A stretch of DNA of 40,138 nt. Source: Pseudomonadota bacterium. Lineage in GTDB: Bacteria; Pseudomonadota; Alphaproteobacteria; Rhizobiales; Rhizobiaceae. Under the pieces are notes generated by a model. The model made no database searches, was not told the origin of the DNA, and was given only the letters and a program-made list of their open reading frames with translations. Shown here one piece after another: positions 19,394 to 27,053 of the stretch. The DNA lies in contig JAEXMK010000175.1 of assembly GCA_023444445.1 (NCBI GenBank), positions 1-40,138 on the forward strand. The letters run 5' to 3'. Every line of letters starts with the position of its first letter. Position 1 is the stretch's first letter. The position numbers were made by a program, and so were the translations under genes.

Positions 19394-19746
19394 GGGGTCT
19401 CCTCCTCCGGCGCGCAGAATATGGTGTAAAGGGCTTCGATCAGCTGCGCCGCTTTCGCTTCGCTCAGCTGGTAGAATATCTGCTTGGCGTCGCGGCGGGT
19501 TTCGACCACGCCGGCTTCCCGCAAGACACCCAGCTGCTGGGACAGCGTCGGCTGGCGAATGTCCAGTTTGACTTCCAGCTCGCCGACGGAAAACTCCCCC
19601 TGCGCCAGCGTGCAGGCGAGCATCAGCCGCGCGGGATGGGCAAGCGTTTTCAGAAGCAGCGCGACCTCGACAGCCCGCTCTTCCATGGCGGGGAGGGGAA
19701 TTTCAGCAATGTGCCGGGGCTTTTCCAGCGCGTTTTTCTTCACCAT
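19390..19746 (-). CDS. bigR: ArsR-family sulfide/persulfide-responsive repressor BigR
   Basis: A 118-aa ArsR/SmtB winged-helix protein. The recognition helix region reads IRQPTLSQQLGVLREAGVVETRR. Two cysteines, Cys45 (MLACTLAQG) and Cys111 (TIFCAPEE), match the pair that in Xylella/Agrobacterium BigR forms a disulfide or polysulfide link and releases DNA. There is no ArsR metal-binding CxC motif. The start at 19746 overlaps the blh stop by 7 bases; a longer frame to 19971 is inside blh. It probably represses its own operon at the AT-rich site near 21069. Confidence 0.9.
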   Translation of the reverse strand: MVKKNALEKPRHIAEIPLPAMEERAVEVALLLKTLAHPARLMLACTLAQGEFSVGELEVKLDIRQPTLSQQLGVLREAGVVETRRDAKQIFYQLSEAKAAQLIEALYTIFCAPEEETP

Positions 19747-21035
19747 ATGCTGCCCTCCAGCACGTCGAGCGGGAATTTCAGATAACGCTTGCCATTCGCC
19801 TCCGGCTCCGGCAGGCGGCCGCCGCGAATATTGACCTGTAGGGCATGCAGAATGAGCTTCGGCATCGGCAATGTGCGATCCCGCGCTTCCCTCAAGCGAA
19901 TGAAGTCCTCCTGCGTCATGCCGGCCAGATGCGGATTGCTGCGCTTCTGTTCGCCCACCGTGCTTTCCCATTTCGGGGCACGGCCGCCGGGCTGATAATC
20001 ATGGCCCGTGAAAAGCCGCGTGTCGTCGGGAAGATCGAGGATATCCTGAATCGATGCCCACAGTTCTTTGGCGCTGCCGCCCGGAAAATCGGCGCGTGCC
20101 GTGCCGGAATCCGGCATGAAAAGCGTATCGTGCACGAAGGCCGCGTTACCCACCGCGTAGGTTACGGAAGCCAGCGTATGGCCGGGCGAAAACAGGACAC
20201 GGGCTTCCAGTGAGCCGATGCTGAACCGGTCGCCAGCCTCGAACAGCTGGTCCCACTGTGAACCATCGGTCTTGAGATCAGGCCAATTGTATTTCGCCTG
20301 CCAGAGCTTCTGTACGCCGGTGACTTTGGCGCCTATTGCCGTCTTGGCGCCGGTCTTCTCCTTTAGATAATGGGCGGCGGAAAAATGGTCGGCATGTGGA
20401 TGGGTATCGAGGATCCATTCCACCGAAAGCCCCTGGTTTTTTATATAGTCCAGAATGGCGTCGGCATTCATCGTTCCGGTGGCGCCGGATTTTTCATCGA
20501 AATCATAGACCGGATCAATGATGGCGCAGCCACCGGTCGCAGGGTCGGAAACGACATATTGCACGCTCGAGGTACGCGCGTCGAAGAACGCCTTGATGTG
20601 CGGCACCGCCTCCGACTGGCGCTCCAGCCAGCGTGTGGCGGCGGAAAGATCAAAGCCATGCATCTTGCCGAAAGCCTCGATGTCGCTCCGCTGCATGCGC
20701 CCGTCGAGGGCTTCACCGAGAACATGAAGCGTCAATGCCCGCGTGCCGCCCTTGCAATGGGCGAAAACAGGACCTTCGGCCTCTGCCATCTTTTGCTGGA
20801 AAGCGCGGATATCGGCTTCGGTAATGGTGGGACCGCTGACCGGGATGAAACCGTAATCCATGCCGGCTGCACCGGCGGCGCTTTTTTCCTGCGCATTGCC
20901 CGGTTGGCCGGGCTCTTCACCATCGGGCCGGACATTGATGATGCTTTTAAAGCCCTGGGCGGAGAGCGATGGGAAGTCGGCAATCATGGGCTGACCCGCG
21001 ACCGTCAGACGCTCGTTGATCTTTACGGCATTCAT
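19740..21035 (-). CDS. blh: Bifunctional sulfurtransferase / persulfide dioxygenase (Blh)
   Basis: A 431-aa fusion. Residues 1-110 form a DUF442 phosphatase-like domain with the active Cys94 in FAHCKGGTRAL, a sulfurtransferase. About residues 140-380 form an ETHE1-type metallo-beta-lactamase domain with ILDTHPHADHFSA (near residue 212) and FTGHDYQPGG. It oxidises glutathione persulfide to sulfite, detoxifying hydrogen sulfide. The ATG at 21035 has GGGAGA upstream. It is the first gene of the operon, followed by bigR and two YeeE/YedE genes with overlapping ends. In Agrobacterium and Xylella the homologous operon is tied to biofilm growth and sulfide detoxification. Confidence 0.92.
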   Translation of the reverse strand: MNAVKINERLTVAGQPMIADFPSLSAQGFKSIINVRPDGEEPGQPGNAQEKSAAGAAGMDYGFIPVSGPTITEADIRAFQQKMAEAEGPVFAHCKGGTRALTLHVLGEALDGRMQRSDIEAFGKMHGFDLSAATRWLERQSEAVPHIKAFFDARTSSVQYVVSDPATGGCAIIDPVYDFDEKSGATGTMNADAILDYIKNQGLSVEWILDTHPHADHFSAAHYLKEKTGAKTAIGAKVTGVQKLWQAKYNWPDLKTDGSQWDQLFEAGDRFSIGSLEARVLFSPGHTLASVTYAVGNAAFVHDTLFMPDSGTARADFPGGSAKELWASIQDILDLPDDTRLFTGHDYQPGGRAPKWESTVGEQKRSNPHLAGMTQEDFIRLREARDRTLPMPKLILHALQVNIRGGRLPEPEANGKRYLKFPLDVLEGSIW

Positions 21036-21053
21036 CGCTTTCTCCCGTCGACT

Positions 21054-21090
21054 AGATTGATATATATTATTATATAATGTATAATGTTAA
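21054..21090. promoter_or_regulatory. AT-rich BigR operator and promoter region
   Basis: A run of almost pure A/T lies 20-55 bases upstream of blh. At its core is a perfect 10-bp palindrome ATTATATAAT (21069-21078), flanked by near-symmetrical TAT/ATA repeats. BigR is known to bind an AT-rich palindrome overlapping its promoter. The contrast with the surrounding GC-rich sequence is strong. Confidence 0.65.
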
Positions 21091-21233
21091 TTTGCAAGGT
21101 GGAAATTGCTGCCTTTCCGAATGCCTTGCTGGGATTCTTTCAGGAAGATTCGAAATTGAATTCTAGAAGCGGGATTTCTTCGTTTTGTGACGCAAGGATG
21201 GAGCTCGGGCCGCATCTGGCCCATAAAACACTG

Positions 21234-21968: not shown

Positions 21969-22205
21969 GTTTTCCTCTCCTGCGGATCGTAGCACCAGCC
22001 GCACATATTTTCCATGTAGAAAATTGAGATAAAAGATTTCGTTTTTTGGGCGGCGCAAGCCTGCGTGAGAACCCGTTTTCTACGCTTCTATTAATACATG
22101 GTCTTATTTTCCCCGTCGCTCGCGAAGGAGAGCAAGGCAATAGTCGACGGGAATCGTCGGATTCGCCATTCTTGTAACACATCGCCCGCAAACCACGGAG
22201 TAGGC

Positions 22206-22880: not shown

Positions 22881-22905
22881 TATAGAATAGTAATTTTATG
22901 GAAAA
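22881..22905 (+). promoter_or_regulatory. Copy 1 of a shared upstream motif (sulfur genes)
   Basis: TATAGAATA, eight variable bases, then ATGGAAAA. The same 25-bp arrangement, with 17 fixed positions identical and some of the inner eight shared, occurs at 24555-24579. It lies 59 bases before the 65-aa ORF and about 420 before ssuD. Likely an activator site or an unusual promoter common to the two units. Confidence 0.55.
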
Positions 22906-22964
22906 TATTGACGATTTTCGCCGGCCGCCGGAGGATAAGGCGGAGTTGAGCAAAGGAGGCGCAC

Positions 22965-23162
22965 ATGCCGCAGGGACTTCATGTGTTTACTTTCGATCTG
23001 TTCGGTTTGACCCGGCGTCAGCCCCGCGAAGAAGAACCGGTTCATCTTAACCCGCTGGAGCACTCCGGCCGCATCCGGCAGGGGAAAAGCGATCTCGAAC
23101 TTGAGCGGGAAGAGATCTGCGAAATGAACTTTGCGTTGCTGGGCTTTTACCCGGTCTTGTGA
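22965..23162 (+). CDS. Small hypothetical protein ahead of ssuD
   Basis: A 65-aa frame with a near-perfect ribosome site (AAAGGAGG, six bases before the ATG). It has 59 bases of spacing from the shared upstream motif, which suggests it is the first gene of the ssuD transcript. The sequence is charged (a stretch of Glu/Arg in the middle) and ends hydrophobic (LLGFYPVL). It has no signal peptide, membrane segment or family I recognise. It could be a small regulatory or leader protein. SsuD starts 161 bases after its stop. Confidence 0.45.
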   Translation: MPQGLHVFTFDLFGLTRRQPREEEPVHLNPLEHSGRIRQGKSDLELEREEICEMNFALLGFYPVL

Positions 23163-23323
23163 GCACGAGCGCTCCTTATCCTTTCGACTCCATTCAACCC
23201 GGAGAGAAACTCCCTGTGATGGATGGAAATTGGAACAAAATTTCTTAAACGCGCTGGGGAACCGGTTACCCTTTCATCATCACACCCGCATCGCCCGAGG
23301 GGCGGATTGCAAAGGACCTGCCG

Positions 23324-24493
23324 ATGAGCAAACACGACAAGCCACTCGATTTCCTGTGGTTCATACCCACCTCCGGCGATGGCAGTTACCTCGGTTCGGA
23401 CGATCTGTCGCGCCCTTCCGATCCGGGCTATTTCCGTGAAATCGCACAAGCCGCCGATCGGCTGGGTTATTCGGGCGTGCTCATTCCAACCGGCGTCGCC
23501 TGCGAAGAATCTTTCATCCTCGCGGCCAATCTTGCTGCATATACCGAAAAACTGAAGTTCCTCGTTGCCATCCGGCCGGGTGTCGCATCACCCGCTTATT
23601 ATGCGCGTCTCGCCTCCACGCTCGATCGCGTTTCCCACGGCCGGCTGCTGCTCAACATCGTCGTCGGTGGCAGCGCGCAGGAACTGGCCGGTGACGGCAT
23701 CTTCCTGCCGCATGACGAGCGTTACGACCACGCCGACGAGTTCTTCCAGGTGTTCAATTCGCTTATCGAGACTGGCAAGGGAGATCTCGACGGCAAATAT
23801 ATCAAGGCGCAGGGTGCCAGGCTCGGGCTGCCGCCGGTGCAAGAGCCGCGCCCGCCGCTTTATTTCGGCGGTTCCTCCGATGCCGGCATCGAGTTTTCGG
23901 CCGGGATTACCGACAAATATCTCACCTGGGGCGAACCGCCCGCACAGGTGGCGGAAAAAATCGCCAAGGTTCGCGCGGCCGCCGCGAAAAAGGGCCGTGA
24001 GGTGACCTTCGGCATCCGTCTGCATTTCATCGTGCGTGAAACCGATGAGGAGGCGTGGGCCGATGCGGATAGGCTGATCTCTAAGCTTTCCGACGAGACC
24101 ATCGCCTCTGCTCAGGAGGTTTTCTCCAAGGCATCGGATTCTGTCGGGCAGGCCAGAATGCAGGCGCTGCATAATGGCCGCCGCGACAAGCTGGAGGTCT
24201 CCCCGAACCTGTGGGCGGGTATCGGTCTCGTGCGGTCTGGCGCGGGCACCGCGCTGGTCGGTTCGCCAAAGACGGTTGCAGCACGGCTCAGGGAATATCA
24301 GGAGCTCGGTATCGATACCGTTATCGCCTCCGGTTATCCGCATCTCGAGGAAGCCTATCGCCTGTCCGAACTGCTGTTCCCGGAAATCGGCCTTGGCGGG
24401 CCGCGAAACGAGATCCGCTCATCGTTCGGCGCCAAGCAGGTTTTCGGCGGTGGCGGGCATGGCGGGAACGTCAAGCTGGTGTCGGGATCCTGA
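23324..24493 (+). CDS. ssuD: SsuD-type FMNH2-dependent alkanesulfonate monooxygenase
   Basis: A 389-aa bacterial-luciferase-family monooxygenase that uses reduced FMN and oxygen to split C-S bonds of alkanesulfonates, releasing sulfite for sulfur nutrition. It matches E. coli SsuD throughout: [75 protein letters not shown] and [11 protein letters not shown]. Cys60 corresponds to Cys54. The usual PTHGDG near the N-terminus reads PTSGDG (Ser17), so one proposed active-site His is replaced. The C-terminus is a Gly-rich tail. AAAGGA lies 7-8 bases before the ATG. No ssuABC transporter is adjacent; the flavin reductase is the next gene. Confidence 0.9.
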
Positions 24494-24554
24494 TCCATCC
24501 AACAAAAGCTTGCAGCGGGATATGAGGCGGCGGCATCATATAAAACATTATTTC

Positions 24555-24579
24555 TATAGAATATTACGATTATGGAAAA
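24555..24579 (+). promoter_or_regulatory. Copy 2 of a shared upstream motif (flavin reductase gene)
   Basis: TATAGAATA, eight bases, then ATGGAAAA, as at 22881-22905. It lies 69 bases before the flavin reductase ATG, nearly the same distance as copy 1 from its ORF. Because ssuD ends at 24493, this gives the reductase and following gene their own controlled start. Confidence 0.55.
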
Positions 24580-24648
24580 CGATATCTATTTCAGCCCCCG
24601 CCACCGCTGCTAGCTATTGAACAATTCAGCTGTTTCAGGAGCCACGCG

Positions 24649-25194
24649 ATGACATTGCAATATGCGGCCAAGGACCAACAATTCATCAATCTGCGCGACC
24701 CGGTCGCCGGCAGGGCGGCGGATGCCGATAGCCTCAAGGCGGCGCTGCGGACGCTCGGCGGCGGCGTCAGCGTCATTACCGCTGGCGAAGGGGATGAGCG
24801 AACGGGTGCAACCGTAACATCGGCCACCGCTTTGTCGATCGATCCACCGCGAATCCTTGTCGCGCTCAACCGTTCCTCGTCCACATGGCCGGTGGTACAG
24901 CGTTTTGGTCATTTCGCCGTCAACATCATCGGTTCGAACCATCAGTTCGTTGCCAACCAGTTTGCTGGTATCGGCGGCCTCAAGGGTGCGGACCGGTATC
25001 GCGGTGCGGAGTGGACAAGGCTGGCGAGCGGCGCACCCATTCTCGAAGATGCCGTAGCCGCGATCGATTGCACCATAGAAGAGGCGATCGAGCGTCACAG
25101 CCACGTCATCGTCATTGGTAAGGTGGAAGCGATCCGTGTCGGCTCCGGCCATTCGCTGCTCTACCAGAACGGACGCTATCATTCACTGGACTGA
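24649..25194 (+). CDS. HpaC-like NAD(P)H:flavin reductase
   Basis: A 181-aa flavin reductase of the HpaC/flavin-reductase-like fold. It supplies free reduced FMN or FAD to two-component monooxygenases. Family features are LRTLGGGVSVITAG, GATVTSATALSIDPPRILVALNRSSSTW, FAVNIIGSNHQFVANQFAG and the C-terminal LLYQNGRYHSL. The ATG at 24649 has CAGGAG upstream. Coming right after ssuD with the same upstream motif, it is the probable partner of SsuD, replacing the unrelated SsuE of E. coli. The next gene starts 51 bases on. Confidence 0.88.
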   Translation: MTLQYAAKDQQFINLRDPVAGRAADADSLKAALRTLGGGVSVITAGEGDERTGATVTSATALSIDPPRILVALNRSSSTWPVVQRFGHFAVNIIGSNHQFVANQFAGIGGLKGADRYRGAEWTRLASGAPILEDAVAAIDCTIEEAIERHSHVIVIGKVEAIRVGSGHSLLYQNGRYHSLD

Positions 25195-25245
25195 GCGTCG
25201 GTCATTTTGGCGCTTTCATTTTGTCATTGTATGAGGGAGTTGAGC

Positions 25246-26190
25246 ATGGGATCCGTCACGCCTCTTGGCGAAAGACTTCGTTTCGTTCCTCCACGCCTCG
25301 GTGCGGATTTTGACGTGCTGACCGTCGCCCGGACGATCGCTGAAAACTGCGCCATCGAAAATCCGGGGCAAATCCACGCACGGATCGCCCGCTCCGGTCT
25401 TCTCGCTCTTTCTGTTCCAACTGACATCGGCGGGGCGGATATAACCAATGACGTCCTCTCGCAGGCGCTTTCGATTATTGCGGCGGCCAATGCCGAGGCG
25501 GCACATGATCTTGTCGAGCATTTCACTGCGCTTGAATTCCTTCGGAATGCGGGCAGTGAAGAGCAGCGCAAAGCTCTTTTCGCCCGCCTCGATCTTGGTG
25601 AGACCTTCGCGCTGGTGACATCCGATGGCGGGCTGGAGCAAGCGATCCCGGTGACGGCTGACGATTACGCCGTGCGCCTTCCCGATGATATTGCCCGGGC
25701 GGCGAGGGCCAATGCCGACTGGATCGTCGTGCCGGCCGTCAACACATCCGGTCAGCCCCTGCTAATCGTTCTGCGCAATCGGCCGAATAGCTCATGGGAA
25801 GGTCTGTTGCGCGCCGATCAGGTGGTGTTTCTCGCGCAGGGCGCAGAGAATCTTGCTGCTTCCGTGTCCACCCTGTTGAAGGCTGCTGTGGCTCTTGGAC
25901 AAAAGCAGCGCGAGCTTTCGGGGTTGCTGGTCGGCAGGCTTTCCGTTGATGGCGCGGCGAAACCAGTGATTGGTGAGATATTTCTCGCCGTCGAACTGCT
26001 GAAGGCGCAGATATCAAGTCTGGCGGCCCATATCGATGCGGCGCAGGTCGGAGCGGAAAACGTCACATGTCGTTCGGTTCGCAACACTGCCATCACCCTT
26101 GAAATTTTGATGGCGCGCCTTGGTCTTATCGAGGGCGTCAGCGAATCCGGGCTCATCGCATCGCTGGCGGATGATCTGCGCCGGCAATAA
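25246..26190 (+). CDS. Shortened acyl-CoA-dehydrogenase-like protein (SfnB/DszC-like), function unknown
   Basis: A 314-aa protein. Its N-terminal 110 residues resemble the helical domain of acyl-CoA dehydrogenases and SfnB/DszC-type flavin monooxygenases: RIARSGLLALSVPTDIGGAD, then IAAANAEAAHDLVEHFTALEF. The family is usually 380-410 aa. Here the middle beta domain is reduced to about 65-80 residues. The standard flavin motifs (T/S-EP-x-AGSD, W-I-T-N) and the C-terminal GGxGY segment are missing. A helical C-terminus remains. Start at 25246 follows GAGGGAG; an upstream frame to 25207 is unlikely. It probably shares a transcript with the flavin reductase. It may be a regulatory or structural partner, or an enzyme with altered flavin binding. 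Confidence 0.7.
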   Translation: MGSVTPLGERLRFVPPRLGADFDVLTVARTIAENCAIENPGQIHARIARSGLLALSVPTDIGGADITNDVLSQALSIIAAANAEAAHDLVEHFTALEFLRNAGSEEQRKALFARLDLGETFALVTSDGGLEQAIPVTADDYAVRLPDDIARAARANADWIVVPAVNTSGQPLLIVLRNRPNSSWEGLLRADQVVFLAQGAENLAASVSTLLKAAVALGQKQRELSGLLVGRLSVDGAAKPVIGEIFLAVELLKAQISSLAAHIDAAQVGAENVTCRSVRNTAITLEILMARLGLIEGVSESGLIASLADDLRRQ

Positions 26191-26217: not shown

Positions 26218-26667
26218 CTATTCGCTGGCCGTGATGGACCGCTGGTCTTGGCCGTCCTTTGCGACGAATTGCGCGAGCGTCATATTGTCCAGAATGGTTG
26301 CGATGGCGTCACGTACGTCCGTCATCGAAACCCTGACCTGACAGGTCTCGGGATCATCGCAGTCGTCACAGGCTTCAAAGGCCGTGCGGCTTGCGCAGCG
26401 AATGGGTGCCAGCGGGCCATCCAGCGTGCGGATGACCTGTCCGATCATGATTTCGGATGGCATTTTAGAAAGCGAATAACCGCCGTTCGGGCCCTTCTTG
26501 GAGCGCAGAATGCCGCTGTTGCGCAGTTCCAGAAGAATGGTGTCGAGGAATTTTTTCGGGATGTTGTTACGGGTCGCAATCTCGGTCACGAAGGCGGTCT
26601 CGCCCTGGGGCAACCGCGCCAGATCGACAAGCGCCTTTAATCCGTATTTGCCTTTTTTGGTCAACAT
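26218..26667 (-). CDS. Rrf2-family transcriptional regulator, probable Fe-S type
   Basis: A 149-aa Rrf2 protein. The N-terminal winged helix opens MLTKKGKYGLKALVDLA; the wing reads SKKGPNGGYSLSK. Four cysteines cluster at residues 91, 100, 103 and 109 (RCASRTAFEACDDCDDPETC), an arrangement like the three cluster-ligating cysteines of IscR/NsrR-type regulators. It is convergent with the shortened dehydrogenase gene, 27 bases away. It may control the neighbouring sulfur genes, possibly sensing sulfur or cluster status like CymR/IscR; that link is inferred from position. Start 26667 is the family start. Confidence 0.87.
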   Translation of the reverse strand: MLTKKGKYGLKALVDLARLPQGETAFVTEIATRNNIPKKFLDTILLELRNSGILRSKKGPNGGYSLSKMPSEIMIGQVIRTLDGPLAPIRCASRTAFEACDDCDDPETCQVRVSMTDVRDAIATILDNMTLAQFVAKDGQDQRSITASE

Positions 26668-26722
26668 CGCCTGATCCGAAAAGAGAACCGGCACATTCAC
26701 AATGCCGGACCACGTTATTCTT

Positions 26723-26738
26723 AACTTACTTAGTAGTT
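26723..26738. promoter_or_regulatory. Candidate operator upstream of the Rrf2 gene
   Basis: AACTTACTTAGTAGTT is an imperfect palindrome (AACT..AGTT ends, ACT/AGT inside) in an A/T-rich run 56 bases before the Rrf2 ATG. Rrf2 proteins commonly bind such short inverted repeats and repress themselves. The assignment is only by position and symmetry. Confidence 0.3.
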
Positions 26739-27053
26739 TTTAGCGAATTCCGGTGCAAGCCGTTTCATTTAGATTTCCAGCGAAAGCGGCTTGTTGCCGC
26801 GCTTTGGAGCAAGGTTTTCGTTAGTTTCGAGAGCGTTGACCAGGGCTACTTTCGAAAACCTGACTGAAAACAATATTTTCTCTGATCTCCTCACAGCATG
26901 GAACAAACAGGCAGCAAGCCAGAAGAAGACCGAACTCGTCGGCACCTTCGCCGGCGGGTGGCCTGGAATCTCGGCTCCGAAGTCATGACGCAATCACGCA
27001 CCAATCCGCCCGGCCTGCCGAAAAGCTGATTGCTCGAATAAATGCGGTGGACG

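Follow-up and report, generated by a model that had tools for sequence, protein, structure and literature searches.

Introduction

The closest described systems are the CysB/Cbl (SsuR) regulons of enterobacteria, in which sites precede the ssu and tau operons. CysB sites take an activator-type position before sulfonate genes, and a site just upstream of the -35 hexamer together with a weak -10 is typical of LysR activators. SutR (YdcN), an XRE-cupin protein, is likewise a regulator of sulfur utilisation. A further comparison is offered by the Rrf2 regulators CymR, IscR, RirA and NsrR. According to PMC9338935, Rrf2 dimers bind operators that have been studied as fragments of 23-39 bp, and CymR is a cysteine regulator that, in the presence of cysteine, binds DNA together with a thiol-lyase. 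Most of the sulfur in soil is organic, as stated in the abstract of PMC4267179. Many of the bacteria considered here are plant-associated.

The locus analysed lies in a 40,138-nucleotide stretch of Rhizobiaceae DNA (contig JAEXMK010000175.1), referred to as the window. Like the CysB/Cbl systems it has an element in an activator-type position before sulfonate genes, but the genomes searched here contain no CysB-family protein over the cut-off. Its likeness to the Rrf2 systems is that the module has beside it a gene for an Rrf2 protein whose cysteines are conserved, and the element is about the size of the operator fragments given in PMC9338935. Whereas CymR, by the same source, binds when cysteine is present, the position of the present element suggests activation. 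How sulfonate use is switched on in these bacteria, which in the genomes searched have no recognisable CysB, can be approached through the element, as it brings together a putative operator of small size, few targets, an adjoining candidate regulator and an associated small-protein family.

Results and discussion

A preliminary description of this DNA had reported one 25-base motif upstream of two adjacent sulfur units, and both copies were found exactly where it had placed them, site 1 (TATAGAATA-N8-ATGGAAAA) at 22,881-22,905 and site 2, of the same pattern, at 24,555-24,579, both on the plus strand. The distances given there, 59 bases from site 1 to the start codon at 22,965 and 69 bases from site 2 to that at 24,649, were correct by sequence. 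It had counted 17 identical positions; the identity was borne out, but the count on the alignment is 21 of 25, four more. With up to three mismatches allowed, sites 1 and 2 are the sole matches to the pattern in the 40-kb window, where 0.01 matches are expected from dinucleotide shuffles. As the pattern was derived from the two sites themselves, the whole upstream regions of both units were also compared. The best ungapped local alignment started at 22,881 and 24,555 with a score of 18, which was reached by none of 2000 dinucleotide shuffles (mean 8.6, maximum 15). By eye, the clearest regularity is a direct repeat TAT(A/G)GAA(T/A)A at 16 bp. A possible third site, degenerate and weak (ACATATTTTCCATGTAGAAAATTG, 22,003-22,026, plus strand), stands before the serine-hydrolase gene at 22,098; its centre is two bases longer than that of ATTTTCCATAGAAAAT, found at the corresponding place in the related genome G002 (locus L134).

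Genome-wide checks of the 25-base pattern were made in relatives of the window's organism. The window resembles Agrobacterium DNA, its SsuD protein being 96-98% identical to those of nine Agrobacterium/Rhizobium loci (L006-L014). In eight Agrobacterium genomes all 14 matches with up to one mismatch, and 16 of the 20 with up to two, lie at the orthologues of the two units, both sites being present in each genome (two per genome). Three of the four remaining matches lie between another Rrf2-family gene, assigned by Pfam for one of them, and a membrane-protein gene recognised by eye. At up to three mismatches there were 54 matches against 17 for the reversed pattern, the class with exactly three being mostly noise. 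Of the Agrobacterium matches with two or three mismatches that were inspected outside the two units, one in a LysR/sugar-binding-protein intergenic region and those at the membrane-protein gene by an Rrf2-family gene, none was seen to adjoin a sulfur gene.

Site 1 is exact in seven of the eight aligned relatives L006-L013 and has two changes in L012. When nine upstream regions were aligned, the block was nearly invariant and the sequence 5' of it diverged. No copy precedes ssuD in L014, which comes from a metagenome-assembled genome and differs in its gene context. The relatives share descent and synteny, and the locus counts are therefore not independent. The genome search and the alignment of orthologous upstream regions that the preliminary description had proposed both came out in its favour, and the shared cis-regulatory site that it had suggested is supported by conservation together with high genome-wide specificity. 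Judged on sequence evidence, the two sites represent a genuine regulatory element of Rhizobiaceae organosulfur genes that is both conserved and specific.

Site 1 opens a longer element, ATAGAATA-N4-TTTTRTRGA-N2-AYATTGAC (22,882-22,912, plus strand), which occurs across genera of the Rhizobiaceae, with 35 copies at up to three mismatches in the loci examined. It runs into a putative -35 hexamer, TTGACG (22,908-22,913, plus strand), which is followed after 17 bases by a -10-like hexamer, GAGGAT (22,931-22,936, plus strand). There are 34 distinct copies at this threshold, ten of them Agrobacterium-type and sharing descent. TTGAC is present in 33 of these and TTGAT in one, partly by construction, TTGAC being the last part of the search pattern. 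In 32 of the 34, TTGACN is followed after exactly 17 bases by a hexamer whose second base is A and whose sixth is T, against 0, 0, 1, 3, 9, 2 and 0 at spacings of 14, 15, 16, 18, 19, 20 and 21; the -10-like hexamer lies outside the search pattern. A putative operator just 5' of the -35-like hexamer, a feature of CysB/Cbl regulons, is found at unit 1, with the TTGAC-N17-hexamer arrangement in 32 of 34 copies. Site 1 would then be part of a promoter-like region.

When 247 genomes of the family were scanned with the extended pattern, ten matches were found in eight genomes, compared with one for the reversed pattern. One of the ten (G004) had also been used in building the pattern, and the other nine differ in sequence from the copies so used. 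Nine of the ten precede a small open reading frame, sORF1, whose start codon lies 81-114 bases from the first base of the element, and the tenth (L128) directly precedes a gene for a FAD/NAD(P)-binding protein. Over all 35 copies, 33 stand before sORF1; the other two, that of L128 and the second one of L018, are followed directly by the FAD/NAD(P)-binding gene, a gene of the same module. A pattern with accidentally wrong spacing gave two matches in 151 genomes, with sORF1 after neither.

In the window sORF1 (22,965-23,162, plus strand) encodes 65 amino acids, is preceded by a ribosome-site-like AAGGAGG and represents an undescribed Rhizobiaceae family. By its dN/dS, which averages 0.18 in 36 pairwise comparisons and does not exceed 0.37, it behaves as a gene. 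In the aligned family both ends are conserved, the start as MP.G...FSFDLFG..RR and the end as FWG.FPVL; the proteins of L020 and L022 have the end and lack the start. A profile search returned 47 homologues, hypothetical or uncharacterised where named and without a Pfam domain among them, and the window's own copy has no match in Pfam or NCBIfam. In several relatives sORF1 is followed by a second reading frame of about 45-47 codons with a hydrophobic tail (sORF2); in the window, the interval between sORF1 and ssuD contains no ATG-started frame of 35 or more codons. The 65-residue frame belongs to a conserved small-protein family that accompanies the element. Neither motif nor small protein is described in the papers found, as far as titles and the openings of abstracts go, supplements and subscription journals being outside this scope.

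The gene that follows, ssuD (23,324-24,493, plus strand), encodes an FMNH2-dependent alkanesulfonate monooxygenase (TIGR03565, 590 bits, cut-off 518). A further stretch, GGAAATTGGAACAAAATTTCTTAAA at 23,225-23,249, lies 75 bases before ssuD and hardly varies among L006-L013 and L015. In L025 ssuD is preceded by a sequence like it, GGAAGAAAATTCCTTATAAAAACTATAG, and comparable stretches occur in Shinella (L003, L047) and in L005. The stretch in the window may perhaps be a second ssuD promoter or an operator.

Unit 2 consists of a flavin reductase (24,649-25,194, plus strand, PF01613) and a shortened SfnB-like, acyl-CoA dehydrogenase-like protein (25,207-26,190, plus strand). Its promoter region carries an extended form of site 2 (24,551-24,588, plus strand), of the TTTCTATARAATAT-N4-ATTATGGAAAACGATGTCTA type. 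Taking the first flavin-reductase match in each of 33 loci, 23 loci have the 34-position consensus at a distance of 97-120 bases 5' of the gene, with no more than 11 mismatches and in each case below the best of 50 shuffles. Nine of the 23 belong to Agrobacterium and were the main source of the consensus. The consensus had no fit in the other ten. By eye, no convincing -10 hexamer was found for unit 2. The SfnB-like protein has the PF02771 N-terminal domain only and scores far below the cut-off of TIGR04022. It is short in the relatives too, and is possibly non-catalytic as a dehydrogenase.

For the sites, presence, conservation, gene association and, at unit 1, position relative to the promoter-like pair are established. 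We infer that the site is bound by a protein, as we do the identity of the binder and the sign of regulation. Taken as a whole, the scheme in which a single DNA-binding protein of the organosulfur (sulfonate) response uses both sites as its operators is probably correct. The TTGAC-N17-hexamer geometry would place the element of unit 1 at about -62 to -36, a region bound by activators. As the -35 that immediately follows the operator there is good (TTGAC) and the -10 is poor, the bound protein would most likely activate transcription, presumably when reduced sulfur is short. The transcript of unit 1 would open with the conserved small protein and continue towards ssuD. Unit 2 is presumed to work like unit 1, its site driving the flavin reductase and the SfnB-like gene.

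The same position is also that of an UP element, and the block is AT-rich and lies at about -62 to -36, so that it might be read as nothing but a contact for the alpha subunit of RNA polymerase, with no regulator involved. We regard this as unlikely: the block has G positions conserved across genera (in ATAGAA and RGA), which are unexpected in an UP element, and the range of genes that it precedes is much too restricted for a general part of promoters. Still less can be said for the idea that ATGGAAAA begins a cysteine-sensing leader peptide. Both copies do contain an ATG, and that of copy 2 opens, by eye, a frame of 13 codons ending in Cys-stop, but the window's two frames show no relation to each other, neither is preceded by a ribosome site as judged by eye, and the relatives L012, L016, L021, L042 and L048 have ATC or GTA in place of the ATG. 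The leader peptide was rejected on account of this replacement, and we give it almost no weight.

If a protein binds both sites, the most likely candidate is the linked Rrf2 protein, a choice that we put forward tentatively. After it would come an unlinked protein, LysR-type or other, from outside the CysB family, and then something else. The Rrf2-family regulator (PF02082), which had been among the binders first suggested, is encoded at 26,218-26,700 on the minus strand. CymR is its nearest named family, at 87.6 bits against a cut-off of 195 for the curated model NF047409; it is below the cut-off of every named subfamily and has the conserved cysteines. Of the 22 motif loci that are at least 12.8 kb long, 21 have the gene linked to the motif; it is also present in 8 of 50 ssuD loci without the element. 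All eight element-bearing genomes of the 247-genome scan have the protein at 76-97% identity. In a survey of 55 hand-picked genomes, from which seven that had not been scanned for the pattern were left out, it was present at 70% or more over its length in 13 of the 14 genomes with the element and in 16 of the 34 scanned without a match (Fisher p 0.003, which ignores kinship). In two genomes (G187 and G247) the element, sORF1, sORF2 and rrf2 follow in order on one strand.

Other observations count against the Rrf2 protein. Among the loci listed for Agrobacterium and Sinorhizobium, none has the motif directly before rrf2, where another palindrome, of the TTACTTAGTAA type, is conserved. In the window this corresponds to a palindromic stretch at 26,716-26,743, 5' of rrf2 and reading AAAAACTACTAAGTAAGTTAAG on the minus strand, which is likely to be an autoregulatory site of the gene. 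Shinella pollutisoli, with ATAGAA cores and no Rrf2 (see below), also speaks against it, as does Agrobacterium cavarae (L040, genome G263), in which the element and sORF1 are present and the Rrf2 match covers only 74 residues (84-157). The latter species is a natural experiment on the need for Rrf2.

The preliminary description had also named a CysB/Cbl-type LysR protein as a possible binder, as in enterobacteria. The site just 5' of the -35 with a weak -10 would suit such a regulator, but the proposal found no support in the genomes: 0 of 14 Rhizobiaceae genomes were over the cut-off of the CysB-family model NF009327 (best 106 bits, cut-off 402), with one of 14 control genomes over it, and an E. 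coli CysB query, in a search without a positive control, gave no match at E 1e-25 in 11 genomes. Queries with CysB, Cbl and Nac at E 1e-6 gave a single LysR match among the ssuD loci, a Nac-like one in L047. A binder of the CysB/Cbl family was rejected on the absence of any member over the cut-off in 14 genomes, and is very improbable. LysR proteins outside that family are abundant, with 36 to 81 weak matches per genome, and one of these or another unlinked non-CysB regulator might bind a global organosulfur operator with ATAGAA half-sites. In favour of this are ATTTTCTATAGAAAAT-type palindromes adjoining genes for LLM monooxygenases, a rhodanese, a homocysteine S-methyltransferase, a sulfonate ABC binding protein and msuE, as well as Shinella pollutisoli, in which ATAGAA cores precede ssuD and a search at E 1e-15 gave no homologue of Rrf2. 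Yet the palindrome search is near background at three mismatches in Agrobacterium (G004, G002 and G001), and no regulator gene with a copy of its own was found, except an XRE-cupin gene beside Shinella sites. Such an unlinked binder is a possibility to be taken seriously, if a less probable one than the linked Rrf2 protein.

Returning to the linked Rrf2 protein, a fuller proposal would be an undescribed organosulfur regulon of Rhizobiaceae, with an operator of ATAGAA half-sites, a new activating Rrf2 subfamily acting from -62 to -36 and, as the signature target, the family of about 65 residues with a C-terminal FPVL, often followed by a hydrophobic-tailed partner of about 46 residues. In all its parts together this proposal is speculative and rather doubtful.

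With the ATTTTCTATAGAAAAT palindrome at up to three mismatches, sites against those of the reversed control numbered 13 and 9 in G004, 10 and 6 in G002, 7 and 8 in G001, 5 and 4 in G010, 4 and 2 in G015, and 4 and 0 on a Shinella plasmid. At up to two mismatches there were 11 sites in five genomes, and eight of the ten examined adjoin genes of an organosulfur kind by Pfam or homology, two of the eight being the flavin-reductase promoter sites themselves. The genes concerned encode LLM monooxygenases, a rhodanese with a serine hydrolase, an NMT1-type binding protein, a homocysteine S-methyltransferase and a flavin reductase; the LLM and NMT1-type proteins presumably serve sulfur metabolism. Related palindromes, at up to two or three mismatches, were also found beside the sulfonate ABC binding protein and msuE. 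That the regulon may be wider than the two units is the weaker claim.

On the Shinella plasmid an XRE-cupin regulator gene (L149:11039-11831), with a small reading frame and a TTCTTATAGACAAT stretch 5' of it, lies between the sulfonate ABC genes and msuE. It recalls the SutR (YdcN)-like regulators in being an XRE-cupin gene among the sites, and is possibly a local sulfur regulator. The difference is that only relatives of 29-31% are present in four Agrobacterium genomes, and for this reason the protein was rejected as the common binder.

In the window itself, a gene at 19,740-21,100 encodes a BLH-phosphatase/metallo-beta-lactamase fusion and has an AT-rich palindromic stretch at about 21,058-21,085; we take this unit to resemble the BigR-BLH sulfide-detoxification unit.
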